From: Cryptosporidium bovis
Taxonomy: Eukaryota > Apicomplexa > Conoidasida > Eucoccidiorida > Cryptosporidiidae
DNA: 64,000 nt
NCBI GenBank assembly: GCA_009768925.2
Contig: VHIT02000052.1
Location: forward strand, 124,001 to 188,000
Direction of reading: 5' to 3'
In this document: piece by piece, positions 46,901 through 54,965 of the stretch
Layout of the letters: every line of letters starts with the position of its first letter
Position numbering within the stretch: the first letter of the stretch is position 1
Notes under the pieces: generated by a model
What the model was told of the DNA's origin: nothing
The model's input: the letters and a program-made list of their open reading frames with translations, nothing else
The model's database searches: none
Translations under genes and position numbers: made by a program

Positions 46901-49808
46901 ATGGACGGTAGTAGTCCAGGTAAGTTAAAAAGTATACTTTGAGTACTTTTGTTAAAAAGAGGTTTACTAAATTTTTTTAGAGCAACTGGTGCGTACTAGA
47001 TATGCGGAAGTCCTTAGAAATTTAAGGAGTCCTGCAGGGTCAGGAAAAATGATACAAAACTTAACATTATTGGCAGAAGATCAACGTCAATATGCACATA
47101 TAATTGCAAGTGTTATACTAGAGGAGATTCCGAGGTCAGATATACCAAGAAAGTACGTACTTTTGTGTTTAGTTGATTCAATTGTTAGAAAATGCCGTTC
47201 AGGGTCTATTTTCTTCCCATATTTTTTGCCATACATAGCTCCATATTTTGCAGAGGCTTATACTACAAAAACTCCCACTCAGATATTGCGTTCTCTTGAA
47301 AAACTATTGAAGGTTTGGAACGAATCATTTCCTAGGGATATAGTGAAGAAGTTAATTTCAACTACTAATTCAGTTAGATCAAAGTTGAATGAGCCCCCAC
47401 TTGAATTGGAAATAAAAGTAGTTTTAAACAATTCAACGAAGCAAAGTACTGATGTTAGTGCTCTTAATCAGACACCAGAACCACCAAATACTCAAAAGGA
47501 AGCTAATATATTAAATGATATATACACTCAGGTATCAAAGTCAATAATTCAAAAAGCTAATATTACGGATGAGAACAATGTCCTACTTAGCAAATTAATT
47601 AAGGATCCGAACGTACACAAAATAACATATCTAAGTTCACAAGGAAAAGTACAGGAATCTCAAAGTTTATTTAATATTCTAGTTAGTAATTTAGAGAATT
47701 CTAAGGTTGATACGAACAACTCAACTGGAATGTTTCAACCACCACACAAAAAAATAAAACAAGATAATTTGGATGCTAGTATTAAACACGATGACAAAAG
47801 TATTTCAAATAAGTGTGCCATACCTCATTCTACATCAACAAGTAGCATCTCAGGAAAACCACCGAGTCAAATGAACCTAGTACAAACAAATATTCAAAAC
47901 ACCATTATTGGAACAACTCAAGTTATTCCCCACGCAAATACAAGTTCTGTATTGCCATCTTCATCTGTTGCAGCTGCAGCAGCAGAAGCAGCAGCAGCAG
48001 CAGCAGCGGAGGTCGTTCAATCAAAAACACAAATACAGCAAAAACATTCATCTGGGTTAATTTCAAACCAACATATTACAATTCCTTCCCAGAGTAAGAT
48101 ATTACCAAACCAATTAGTAGTTGCGCAGCAAATAGTGAATTCAAATGTTTCAAATGTAAACACACAAATTAAGAAGACCTTCTCTCCAAGATTTTCTGAA
48201 AATAATACCTCTGCAATATTGTTGTCTATTTGGAATCAATTGTTTACACAGAATGATGTATCCAAGAATGTTGACACTAAAAAGCTGATAAAAATTAAAT
48301 CTTCTATTGTTGACGGCATGGGCGATCAAAATATTTTTGTCGAAGGGCTGCATATAAATGAAATGAATGATCTTCTCCTGCTATACAAGAAGCTTCAAGA
48401 AAACGTAGACGCCTCTGTCCAATTTAAAAAAACAGTTTGGCTTAAATCTCATTTTATCAAGAAGAGAATAATTGATAATATTTGTGACTTTAACATTCAA
48501 TACAATATTTCAATGTATTACTTTGATAGACCCAATCAATGCCATACATGTGGCTGCAGATTTGTTGATTCAAAAAAGAAGGAGCTTCATATCCAAATCC
48601 ACCTTTCAAGAAATCTCATTTTTAAACAAAAAAAACAGACATGGAACTCACAAGTTCTTTGGCCAAATCTTCAAGATTGGATATACGGTTCGGATAATTT
48701 AACTGAAAATGCAACTAGAAACGATGGTTCAATTGATAGCACTGATTGCCATAGAGATAAAAGTGATAGAAATACTGGAAACATGACCGAAATAGGAAGT
48801 AGTTTTTTGAGTGATGTAACGGGTTCACAAAGCGAGAAAGATATTAATTATAACGATTTATATGACATAATTTTAAAAAGGTTCTCTAAGAAGAGCGATG
48901 AAATTGTTTGTTTGAATGGCGATTCCAATATGGATAAATTTAAAGACGGTATAGATGATGAAAGTTACCATCAAACTTGTAATGAGTCTGTAAATAGACG
49001 TTTAAGGGGAGATTTATTACTAGTGCACTATATGGATTGTATTGAGAGTATTAATAGTGCTAATTCAAACAACACTATTAAAGGACTTGTCAATTCTTCA
49101 GGTATTTTGGAATATACAAGCGTTTACATAGATAACTTGATAATTAAGGAAGTTGAAGATATTTGTAACAACCTCTCATCGCTGTGGAATGAAATGTCTC
49201 AGTGTGTTGCATCTTCTTGCACTCCTATTGATCCTTTGCATATTACATGTGATATTTGTCATGAATCACTAAGGATTAAATGGTCCTCACTTTTGAAGTC
49301 ATGGATATCAGTAGATGCAGTGGCCTTAACCCTAGACGATGGAAAAGACACAATAAATGAAGAAAAAAATGACATATTTAACCATAAACTATCATTAGCG
49401 GTTTTGGACCGAATGTCGGATGTAAACGCATTGAATTCCAGTAATACAAAGGAGAGAATTGTAGATAATATGTTGAAATTTATCCAATGGAAATCACAAA
49501 ACACATCATCAAAATATTATAAAAAGATTGAATTTAAACCATTCGACATTGATTATTATAACTACAACTTGTTTATTAACCGTAATCAGGGAATTATGGG
49601 CGATCGTTTCGTGGCGGCACACAAATCATGTTTCATACACTACTTTGTTTATAATGACATTAATTTCAGGCTTCCAGCCAACACTAAGATTAGCAAAAAG
49701 AAAAAATATATACACAAAGATGCAGTGGTGTCATCGAATATACTGCGTGAAGCAGCTAGTCGTATAGATACATCTAAGAGTGTCACAAAGAGATTCTCAT
49801 TTATTTAG
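46901..49808 (+). CDS. PCF11: PCF11-like pre-mRNA cleavage factor, two exons
   Basis: Exon 1 is tiny (46901-46919, MDGSSP), with a 61-nt intron to 46980; exon 2 is 46981-49808. The product is 948 aa. The RNA polymerase II CTD-interacting domain (CID) covers residues ~8-135: VLRNLRSPAGSGKMIQNLTLLAEDQRQYAHIIASVILEEI, KYVLLCLVDSIVRKC, FLPYIAPYFAEAY, LEKLLKVWNESFP. A zinc finger CHTCGCRFVDSKKKELHIQIH is followed by WNSQVLWPNLQDWIYG, the Pcf11 C-terminal finger arrangement. A second finger, CDICHESL ... AAHKSC, sits near residue 750-875. PCF11 couples 3'-end processing to transcription termination. An Ala run (GCA repeats, 47971-48008) interrupts the middle. Confidence 0.88.
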
Positions 49809-49904: not shown

Positions 49905-50260
49905 ATGATTGATGATTGTAGATCTGTTGATTATCTAAAAGTTCAGAGAAAAGGTAAGTCTCCTCCACTTTTCCAAATGCAATTCTAACTTCCACCTTAG
50001 CTACTCAGTCAACCCTGGTAAATGAATTGATATTAGTTGCAGGTATTATTTTAGGCTTTTCAGCTGCCTTGTTCCAGATCAATTACTTACTATTCTTATC
50101 GGGACTTTTTATTTTGTCGAGTATTGTGACCTCAAATAACAGCGACATTCAACGTACTACAACACTAATTGGATTTTTAATAATGGCTTTCATTTCTAAT
50201 TACATATTCCCAAAGAACATTAATATCGAAAACAATGGAAATGATGCAATTAATTCATAA
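49905..50260 (+). CDS. Asterix/PAT10 (WDR83OS)-like ER insertion factor, two exons
   Basis: Exons 49905-49953 and 50001-50260 (47-nt intron, GTAAG...CTTAG) join in frame to 102 aa. The second exon has three hydrophobic segments: LILVAGIILGFSAALFQ, LFLSGLFILSSIV and LIGFLIMAFISNYIFP. The spacing and the polar SNNSDIQRT turn mirror Asterix ([51 protein letters not shown]). In animals Asterix pairs with CCDC47 in the PAT complex that helps fold multi-pass membrane proteins. Small size makes the family call tentative. It ends 9 bp from the ATG5 stop, tail to tail. Confidence 0.6.
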
Positions 50261-50269
50261 AATAAGAAC

Positions 50270-51233
50270 TTAAATTCTAAGTAACAAGTGAATCATGCCA
50301 TCTATATACGAACAAGACACCAATAAACATATTAATGGTGTTTCAATAGGAATTTCTATTCCATGAAATATTACGAGTAGATCATCATAGCTTTCATTTA
50401 AATTAGATGATATATCATTTAGTACATCTCTTATTGTTAAGGGTCTATTGTTTATGTTTCTACTAAAAGATTTTAAGAAAATCTTGTCTTTTATATATAT
50501 CTTTACTGGAACGTTCCTGCAATTGAATTTTTATTTGTCTACAATTCTAAAAAATGACATACCTCGTGTTATTATATATTTCCTCTACTTTTCCAAATAT
50601 TTCCTCGTAAATAGACTCATATTTTTCAGTAGTTACAGATAGTGAGTATATTAAATCTATTAAGTATTTATATTTTTTTTCACTTAACATTTGAAATTTT
50701 CTGCAGTCCCCCAATATCAAGGTCTGTGATAATTTAATATCATTTGTTATCTTCTTGACAAAATCAATCTCGTTAAAAGTGATTCTTTCTATTTTCTCTC
50801 CGCTTTTATCCTCAAATACTATCACAAGGCTCACGCAAAGCTGCAAACCATTTTTATTATAAATGTCAAGTATTAATCCAATAGGGTATTCACTAAAATT
50901 TAATAATCTACGCTTATAAAAGGAATATATTTCGAGGAAAAGAATTTACCTGTTAATTTTAAACCCGTCACATTCAAACCAGTGATGATTTTTTTCAATC
51001 AACATTGAAAATCTATTATCAAATGAATTGTAATAATCCTGTAAAGCGTCAATAACACATATTAAATACCCTACTCTAGGAACCAGCAAATACAACTTGG
51101 GGGCACACTTCAAAGTTGAATATCCTTTTGCTCCCCTAATTTCCAGACGTATTGATAATATAACTAAACCTGAGTGGATAACATTTTGTGTTAAAGAACT
51201 AAATTTATTGGTGAGTTCATTATTTAATAGCAT
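50270..51233 (-). CDS. ATG5: ATG5 autophagy protein, three exons
   Basis: Exons (minus strand) 50950-51233, 50563-50892 and 50270-50516 join in frame to 286 aa (human 275). Introns are 57 and 46 nt. First UFD: GLVILSIRLEI ... APKLYLLVPRVGYLICVID, then HHWFECDGFKINR-SEYPIGLILDIY, equal to ATG5's YYLLLPRVSYL ... [23 protein letters not shown]. The helical middle follows. The second UFD in the last exon reads VPVKIYIKD...RPLTIRDVL...LLVIFHGIEIPIETPL, equal to IPFRIYQTT...TLGDLL...QVMIHGIEPMLETPL. ATG5 forms the E3-like complex with ATG12 and ATG16 that lipidates ATG8. In an ungapped reading, the conjugated lysine (human K130) is not in its usual place. Not visible without splicing. Confidence 0.9.
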
Positions 51234-52169: not shown

Positions 52170-52384
52170 AAATACTTTTTTATTTCGATTCTAAGAATTA
52201 TAGTTCAGAAAAAAATTTAGTTAATTCAATTAAAATAATATTTTTCAGGTATATAGGAAGATAATTTGTTGATAATAATTAATTATAACTTGTATTAGTT
52301 ACATGCGTTGTTTTTATTTCTGGTCTTAGCTTAACCTTTATTGTTAAAACTTATTCTTCTGCTAAAAGGTCCAGTCGTCGGTTT

Positions 52385-52469
52385 GCGTGGATGGCCGAGT
52401 TGGTCTAAGGCGTTAGACTCAAGATCTAATGAGCGTATGCTCTCATGGGTTCGAATCCCATTCCACGCA
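52385..52469 (+). tRNA. tRNA-Leu (anticodon CAA)
   Basis: The cloverleaf folds by eye: acceptor GCGTGGA/TCCACGC, D arm GCCGAGTTGGTCTAAGGC, anticodon stem TTAGA/TCTAA around loop CTCAAGA (CAA anticodon), a long class II variable arm, and T arm ATGGG-TTCGAAT-CCCAT. The discriminator is A. No intron and no encoded CCA. Reads TTG codons. Confidence 0.97.
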
Positions 52470-52779
52470 GCTTTTTACTTAAGATCGGTGATACCCCGCC
52501 TTTGTAATTTGCGCGGTTTGTTTGATTTTGGTGCTTTCATCTTATTAAATTTCCAATGTTCTCGAGAATTGAAAGTGTGACTTTTCGTTTGTGAGGACAC
52601 TTTGTGGCATCTGAAATGAAAACGAAACACTTTTAATCATTTTTTTCTCAAATATTATATGAAAAAAGAACTGCCCACTTGATAACCCTATTTTTTTTGA
52701 TTTGCTATTAAAAGCATTAGGTTACTTACTAAGAAATCAATAGTATTACCGTTATATAACTTTTATCTAATTCTCAGTT
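52470..52779. other. Spacer between tRNA-Leu and VID27-like gene
   Basis: No ORF. TTTTTAC directly after the tRNA (52472-52478) may act as the RNA polymerase III stop. GCGCGGTTTG at 52511-52520 is the only other G/C element. Confidence 0.3.
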
Positions 52780-54965
52780 ATGAGCAGCCTTATTAGGAGG
52801 TTTTTCACTGGAATATCTAGATCTGGTGACTCCGAACAATTTAACAATTGTTATAATGGTAAGTTTATAAAAAAAACAATGTAATTCCTAATGAAATAAT
52901 TGTTTATTTAATAGGAACGCTGTATAAGTCCGTTGGGAAGACGCTGAATCTTATTTTGTGTTCTTGTAAATTAAGTATAGAGGACTGTGTGAAAATAGCC
53001 GGGTTTAACCCTAATGACAACCAAAAAGAGGAGTATATATTTAACTTTCAGAATATCTACCACTTCCATTGTAATAGAGAAGGGGAGCTTACTATCATTC
53101 TACGTACTGGCTCTGACTTAGTTAAATTTGTTTTTGAATTTGAAAAACAAAACCCTCATGTTTTGTCTTCAATCTCCTACAACATAACAATTTCATTAAA
53201 ATCACTTTGTAGTATTGTAGATCAGATACCGATAGAGTTATATGAGCACAATGATAATAATTTAGAGGCTTTATTTAATTCTTCAAATGGGTTCAATCCA
53301 GAAGAATGGTTGTTAATAAGTAGTAATTGCACATGTGAGTTGTTATCAAGTAAAGATTACAAGGACATTATTTTTTCAATTAAGGATTTATCTGAAAAAG
53401 GTAATGTATTGTTCACAAGTATAATGGGTGATAACATACTTTTCTTACCAAAGCTGACTGAAAGAGCTGTAGAATTTTATGGATCAAGTAATGATGAGAT
53501 TAGAAAAAGGTACAGAATCCACTTCAAAAGGAATAAAGAAGTAAATGAGAGTAGTGACTCGTACATTTCTACTGAAAACGATATTGATAATTTTCTAGGT
53601 AGATTACTTGGATATATTGACCAAGTAAATCCTGAAGAGAAAAAAAGAAAGAAAAGTATTTCTGATTTTATTAACGGTGAAATATCAGATAATGGCATTA
53701 CATACAAGATGGATATAGACGATAAATACAATCCTGTAGAAGACCAAATAATGTGGCATGAAGTTAGTAATGAGGGTAAAAGTGAGGATTCAAGCGACTA
53801 TTATAGTGAAGATGAATATAAAAAAACCCCTGTTAGGAGGACTAAATCCAAGCATTCAAGTTTAAGTCACAAATATTTACTAATTGGGCATGAACATACG
53901 TTTGTAGGGAGGGCAGACAGAAAAAGTAACAAGTCAGAAATTGCTGTTTTTAAAAATTTTGAATACGAGGAAAGCAATTATACCTTGGGTGGAACCCCTG
54001 CGAGAAACATTTCAGTAATGAAAAATGTAGAATATAACAACCAAAATATTCTTCCAGTAAGTGGCCAGTTACATAATTGTGAAACTCAGATGCTTTTTCT
54101 ATCAGAAACAGATCCAAACCATGTATATCAAATGGATTTAGAAAACGAAAAAATCCTCAGGCGTTGGGATGCTGATGGTTTGCCTATATCATGTCTGGGA
54201 TTGTCAAATAAGGATTCACAATATACACCAGTTCCAACGTTTCTAGGGTTAAGCAACAACGCATTATTTGTTATGGATAGCCGAATTAAGGATAACTCAA
54301 ATCGTTTTACATCCAAATTATATCGTTCAAATGTGTTATTTAGTAGCTTAGCTACTGACAAGGATGGGCACATTCTGCTTGGTAATGATTTGGGAGAGTT
54401 GAGGTTATATGATGGCACTATAAACAGAGATGGTGAATTCAAAAAAGCTAAGACGCTTTTGAATTCATTTTCCTCACCAATATTGTCGGTAGATGTTACA
54501 AGAAATGGTAACTGGATTTTAGCAACAACAAAGAATTGCATATATCTGTATCCTGTTTGCGAGCAAAGTCAAGATTACGAAAATGTAAGAAATGGTTTTG
54601 TTACAAGTTTAAAGAATAAACCTCCTTCAAGAAAATTGAAACTAAAACCGGAAGATATTTATCACTATAGGATAACCGATGTTAACTTCACTCCCGCTAG
54701 GTTTGATCAAAGTCAAGATTCTAACGGTAATTTTGCTGAAACAAAAATTATATCAAGCATAGACAATTTAGTTATTGTTTGGGACTTTGAGGCTATTAAA
54801 AGAGGAAATCTGTACGCATATTCAATAAAGGAAGTTGAATATAAAGTTGACGACTGCTCAACTTTTTACAATAGTAGTGATTCAGTAGTGTTGGCTTACA
54901 ACGACGATTTAACAATACACAAATTAGGTAAAAAAAACAAAAGAAACATTTACTCCAGAAACTAA
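52780..54965 (+). CDS. VID27-like WD/beta-propeller protein, two exons
   Basis: Exon 1 52780-52858 (MSSLIRRFFTGISRSGDSEQF) and exon 2 52915-54965 (56-nt intron) give 709 aa. The N-terminal PH-like part begins GTLYKSVGKTLNL and includes FHCNREGELTIILRTGSDLVKFVFEFE. The C-terminal beta-propeller starts about residue 400: MLFLSETDPNHVYQMDLENEKILRRWDADGLPISCLGLSNK, then FLGLSNNALFVMDSR, SSLATDKDGHILLGNDLGELRLYDG and ILSVDVTRNGNWILATTKNCIYLYPV, which is the VID27 family block. In yeast Vid27 is linked to vacuolar import and degradation; the molecular role is little known. Confidence 0.85.

Follow-up and report, generated by a model that had tools for sequence, protein, structure and literature searches.

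The gene on the minus strand at 50270-51233 of the window, as we call the whole stretch of 64,000 nucleotides of the Cryptosporidium bovis genome analysed here, raises the question of whether it is an intact ATG5 and what an ATG5 would serve in an apicomplexan without an apicoplast. In the excerpts available of the earlier literature, ATG5 was reported absent from the apicomplexans examined (PMC2408969, 2008), and clear ATG5-ATG12 orthologues were not found in Toxoplasma (PMC3228817, 2011); later reviews, in the parts at hand, report both proteins in apicomplexans (PMC8161075; PMC7600729; PMC12005411). The main-text portions of a comparative paper of 2025 leave Cryptosporidium unmentioned (PMC11764061), the excerpt of PMC10104450 does not name it, and those of PMC13381302, PMC7539657 and PMC10543664 hold nothing about the parasite's own ATG5. 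Experimental work on Cryptosporidium's own ATG5 was not found among the literature matches listed.

Structure and identity of the ATG5 gene

Three minus-strand exons between 51233 and 50270, joined over two GT-AG introns, encode a spliced protein of 286 amino acids. Exon 1 (50950..51233) begins with the start codon at 51233 and encodes most of the UblA domain, exon 2 (50563..50892) carries the end of UblA, the middle region and a lysine, K148, at the ATG12-acceptor position, and exon 3 (50270..50516) encodes UblB and ends with the stop codon at 50272-50270. Retention of either intron 1 (50893..50949; 57 nt, GTAAAT...TTTTAG) or intron 2 (50517..50562; 46 nt, GTATGT...TTGCAG) would lead into an in-frame stop. 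The residues flanking intron 1 agree with the C. xiaoi and C. ryanae proteins, which as deposited also have 286 residues each and align without gaps over both exon junctions. The first-pass annotation had given the gene three exons, two introns (57 and 46 nt) and a product of 286 residues, and its coordinates and length proved to be correct; likewise, the landmarks it had read, LVPRVGYL, EYPIGLI and FHGIEIPIETPL, are all present in the spliced translation.

As a control for chance, a profile built solely from the ATG5 proteins of four other species (P0003-P0006) was run on the 1144 open reading frames of the window (stop to stop, at least 25 residues). It matched three of them, which are exactly the ATG5 exons, each at E < 1e-27 (9e-29, 2e-30 and 1.6e-28 for exons 1, 2 and 3), and gave the spliced protein 312 bits. 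A pseudogene, or an accidental joining of unrelated reading frames, might be entertained for a gene that is known here from its sequence, but each of the three exons matches independent orthologues and the C. ryanae protein (FG386_000813, filed as hypothetical) is 73% identical without a gap, which makes this explanation extremely improbable. Judged by these comparisons, the locus is a genuine and intact three-exon gene.

The neighbourhood comprises plus-strand genes for a CID-domain protein (46971-49808) and a VID27 WD40-like protein (52863-54965), together with a tRNA-Leu(caa) at 52384-52471. Another plus-strand gene, of two exons (49905-50260), is convergent with ATG5 and ends 9 bases from the ATG5 stop; its product resembles the PAT complex subunit Asterix, below the cut-off (18.3 versus 22.7 bits).

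The protein contains ATG5_UblA (residues 27-112; 45.5 bits, cut-off 23) followed by ATG5_UblB (residues 206-283; 47.3 bits, cut-off 20.4), that is, both domains in the order of ATG5 and each above its curated Pfam cut-off. Against solved structures, phmmer returned ATG5 in seven of nine rows, human ATG5 at 1.1e-9, and two chains unrelated to it at E 0.019. Seven Cryptosporidium sequences combined into a profile likewise returned ATG5 in seven of nine rows, human ATG5 being the best at 1.1e-13, with the remaining two unrelated at E ~0.2, and this profile also matched the ATG5 of Kluyveromyces marxianus. On these domain and homology matches the window gene encodes ATG5, as had been assigned from the letters alone. 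The ATG5 fold expected at the outset received weak support: ATG5 chains occupied Foldseek ranks 1-30, but with TM-scores (query length) of just 0.23-0.29 on a poor model, predicted from seven sequences of one genus (mean pLDDT 46), of which only the UblB end is reasonably modelled. Helices between residues 136 and 203, between the two Ubl domains, appear in this low-confidence model. A third Pfam row for the protein, under its cut-off, was discarded as a chance match.

The single-sequence homologue search found two at E <= 1e-3 (C. xiaoi and C. ryanae). When three sequences were aligned and searched with at E <= 1, the number rose to six including these two, all from Cryptosporidium; the ATG5 proteins of Toxoplasma and Plasmodium were not reached. 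Both ATG5 domains occur in all six deposited orthologues, four of which are named autophagy protein 5 by at least one source: C. xiaoi RS030_1163 (95% identity; NCBI lists it as 'hypothetical protein' and UniRef as 'Autophagy protein 5'), C. ubiquitum cubi_01360 (48%), C. parvum CPHLJ_4g2034 (46%) and the C. felis orthologue (44%). The protein of chipmunk genotype I (ELE39_002900, 46%) is uncharacterized. The first-pass annotation had left open whether the gene was annotated; sister species carry annotated copies, some as autophagy protein 5 and others as hypothetical or uncharacterized, and Cryptosporidium ATG5 is thus already known, the C. bovis gene being an ordinary orthologue. The deposited models of the chipmunk genotype (P0005) and C. 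ubiquitum (P0006) lack 10 and 17 residues relative to the other sequences, and the first gap among these shortened models covers the position of intron 1; the missing stretches are probably gene-model errors.

ATG12, the acceptor lysine and the E2 enzymes

The partners of ATG5 were sought in the same assembly (9.06 Mb, 43 contigs). An ATG12 gene lies on the minus strand of contig C2 (84675-84959), with four predicted exons separated by introns of 44, 42 and 51 nt. Its predicted product of 102 residues matches positions 1-83 of the 87 in the profile with 56 bits (cut-off 22.8). This protein ends in KLYISYSLKPLFL (...KPLFL), with a terminal leucine and no glycine. The homologue search found one ATG12 homologue, from C. 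xiaoi, which as deposited has 102 residues and the identical KPLFL end, so that the ATG12 end was compared in two species, from predicted and deposited proteins. Against solved structures the C. xiaoi protein gave ATG12 in three of five rows (best ATG12b, 3.4e-10), and its alignment to known ATG12s extends to residue 96-97 of 102. From these alignments the ubiquitin fold of ATG12 looks complete, the last residues divergent and the glycine absent. Because the predicted ATG12 lacks the terminal glycine, covalent ATG12-ATG5 conjugation is unlikely. The ATG12 and ATG8 genes lie about 17.5 kb apart on the same contig, and for C. parvum an ATG12, cgd7_3873, is given in the Figure 5B legend of PMC8161075, a paper available in excerpt.

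The family shared by ATG3 and ATG10 (PF03987) gave one genome match at E <= 1, an ATG3-type gene, and no further match at E <= 1 that could represent a second E2 of this type (ATG10), a search that a divergent or split gene could escape. The ATG3 reading frame, on contig C18 (L015:1350-2072), has a short linker ahead of the active-site part, and an acidic ATG12-binding region like the human one was not discernible in it by eye.

K148 is invariant in all seven Cryptosporidium ATG5 sequences, and so are its surroundings, I-K-L-S-Q-T. In the seven-sequence profile it is aligned to a lysine of K. marxianus ATG5 with high posterior, and in the single-sequence and full-length profile alignments to a lysine of human ATG5 with low posterior, while two of the human profile alignments shown are split, with the K148 position outside them. 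This human lysine is K130, the ATG12 acceptor. An invariant K148 counts against a non-covalent reading, because the lysine would be superfluous without conjugation; its conservation and its alignment with the K. marxianus and human lysines would suit a covalent bond retained through K148, with an ATG10 that escaped detection and an ATG12 that gains a terminal glycine by processing or splicing. However, the terminal residue of ATG12 is leucine in both species checked, the C. xiaoi protein can be aligned to known ATG12s almost to this end, and a second PF03987 match is missing at E <= 1, so that we consider a retained covalent bond improbable. The conservation of K148 is not evidence for conjugation, because ATG12 lacks the glycine; the lysine may be kept as part of a conserved ATG5-ATG12 surface. 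The excerpts of PMC12005411 argue that this surface counts for more than the bond.

The ATG8 conjugation set and a proposed non-covalent E3

The gene of ATG8 was found in two exons, and the C-terminus of the protein reads YGSENAFG-SLN. Since ATG8 ends with a glycine followed by SLN, trimming by ATG4 would be needed, and ATG4 was detected well above the cut-off in the genome profile search (1.7e-50). A glycine plus tail agrees with published accounts, as far as the excerpts of PMC8161075 and PMC3228817 go. For ATG7, an N-terminal match under the cut-off (25.5 versus 27 bits) is followed by a ThiF domain well above it (1e-27). Beclin/ATG6 is present in the same genome (5e-36).

A candidate ATG16 (C5:78760-79023; L007:1168-1767) is spliced to 164 residues comprising an N-terminal segment, which we take to resemble the segment by which yeast Atg16 binds ATG5, and a coiled coil. 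It is the best of five family matches, with 30.3 bits against a cut-off of 33.7, the match covering the coiled-coil part, and it was not filed as ATG16 because its score is below the Pfam cut-off. Such weak matches mean little, since sub-threshold matches to the family also turned up in 10 of the 14 control genomes. A search of solved structures with the candidate returned no ATG16 chain at E <= 10. Thus, among the partners that the first-pass annotation had suggested seeking, ATG12, ATG3, ATG7 and ATG8 are in the genome, but ATG16 is represented by a candidate under the Pfam cut-off.

We propose that ATG5 is likely a subunit of a non-covalent ATG12-ATG5(-ATG16) E3 that would drive ATG8-PE lipidation in an organism with no apicoplast, a reading drawn from the gene set and its protein ends. 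ATG4 would trim the SLN tail behind the glycine of ATG8. ATG12 would bind to ATG5 without a covalent bond, by analogy with the non-covalent ATG12-ATG5 E3 described for Plasmodium and Toxoplasma in the available parts of PMC8161075, PMC7600729 and PMC12005411, and the 164-residue coiled-coil protein may act as the ATG16 of the complex. This complex would then promote the step in which the E2, ATG3, passes ATG8 on to phosphatidylethanolamine, and the lipidated membrane would be autophagosomal or endolysosomal, not that of an apicoplast.

Role without an apicoplast and comparison with known systems

The first-pass annotation had argued that a retained ATG5 implies a role other than apicoplast inheritance. 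This follows if Cryptosporidium has no apicoplast, whose loss is described in the excerpts of PMC8161075 and PMC9973341, and a non-apicoplast role of ATG5 in Cryptosporidium is therefore reasonable; but the same excerpts already argue such a role from ATG8, and it may be either true autophagy or CASM-like lipidation, both named in that annotation.

ATG9 and ATG13 gave no genome match at E <= 1 when genes were read exon by exon, the profiles being equally silent in every control genome. An exon-by-exon search for PROPPINs, without a positive control, gave one weak match, to part of a general WD40 protein; with 40 Pfam matches, of which those listed are mostly WD40 families, this protein was not accepted as ATG18. 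We take this protein to resemble PWP2. These results would fit an ATG5 whose sole task is a remnant form of lipidation that is non-degradative (CASM-like, or for the upkeep of vacuoles and endosomes) after loss of the canonical machinery of autophagy initiation. In mammals, the WD40 domain of ATG16L1 is required for CASM, and no WD40 family was found by Pfam in the ATG16 candidate, which argues against the remnant reading, as does the presence of Beclin/ATG6. The negative searches, moreover, read genes exon by exon without a positive control, the loss of the initiation set is judged without ATG2, which was not scored, and the absence of ATG9 is nothing special, as Plasmodium lacks it too (PMC8161075, in excerpt). 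We therefore regard a solely remnant function as possible but on the unlikely side.

A bolder combination, that a stripped ATG8-lipidation machine, comprising the non-covalent ATG12-ATG5 E3 and ATG4-processed ATG8, persisted once the apicoplast and the ATG9/ATG13/ATG18 initiation set had both been lost, is a speculation that we hold to be rather doubtful. If true, it would offer a natural example of ATG8 being lipidated for neither a plastid nor classical autophagosomes. The apicomplexan Cryptosporidium allows what the ATG8 system does for the plastid to be separated from what it does in autophagy, and with a near-complete conjugation set, ATG5 present and ATG12 lacking the glycine, this separation becomes a direct depletion question. 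The useful addition of this work is the ATG set assembled around ATG5, which points to a non-covalent E3 acting on ATG4-processed ATG8.

Compared with the other Cryptosporidium ATG5s, that of C. bovis is orthologous, with sequence divergence as the sole difference. With the covalent system of human and yeast, it shares the domain order and the lysine at the acceptor position, whereas C. bovis differs in lacking the terminal glycine of ATG12 and in the ATG10 that was not found. The non-covalent system of Plasmodium and Toxoplasma resembles that of C. bovis in an ATG12 without terminal glycine, in no ATG10 being found and in the ATG8 conjugation set, a likeness drawn from gene sets and not from ATG5 sequences. 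As to ATG9, which was not found in the C. bovis genome at E <= 1, the excerpts of PMC8161075 describe it as kept by coccidia and absent in Plasmodium. In contrast to the Plasmodium and Toxoplasma system, the ATG8 of C. bovis has a glycine followed by a tail, and the conjugation set in Cryptosporidium has no apicoplast to serve.
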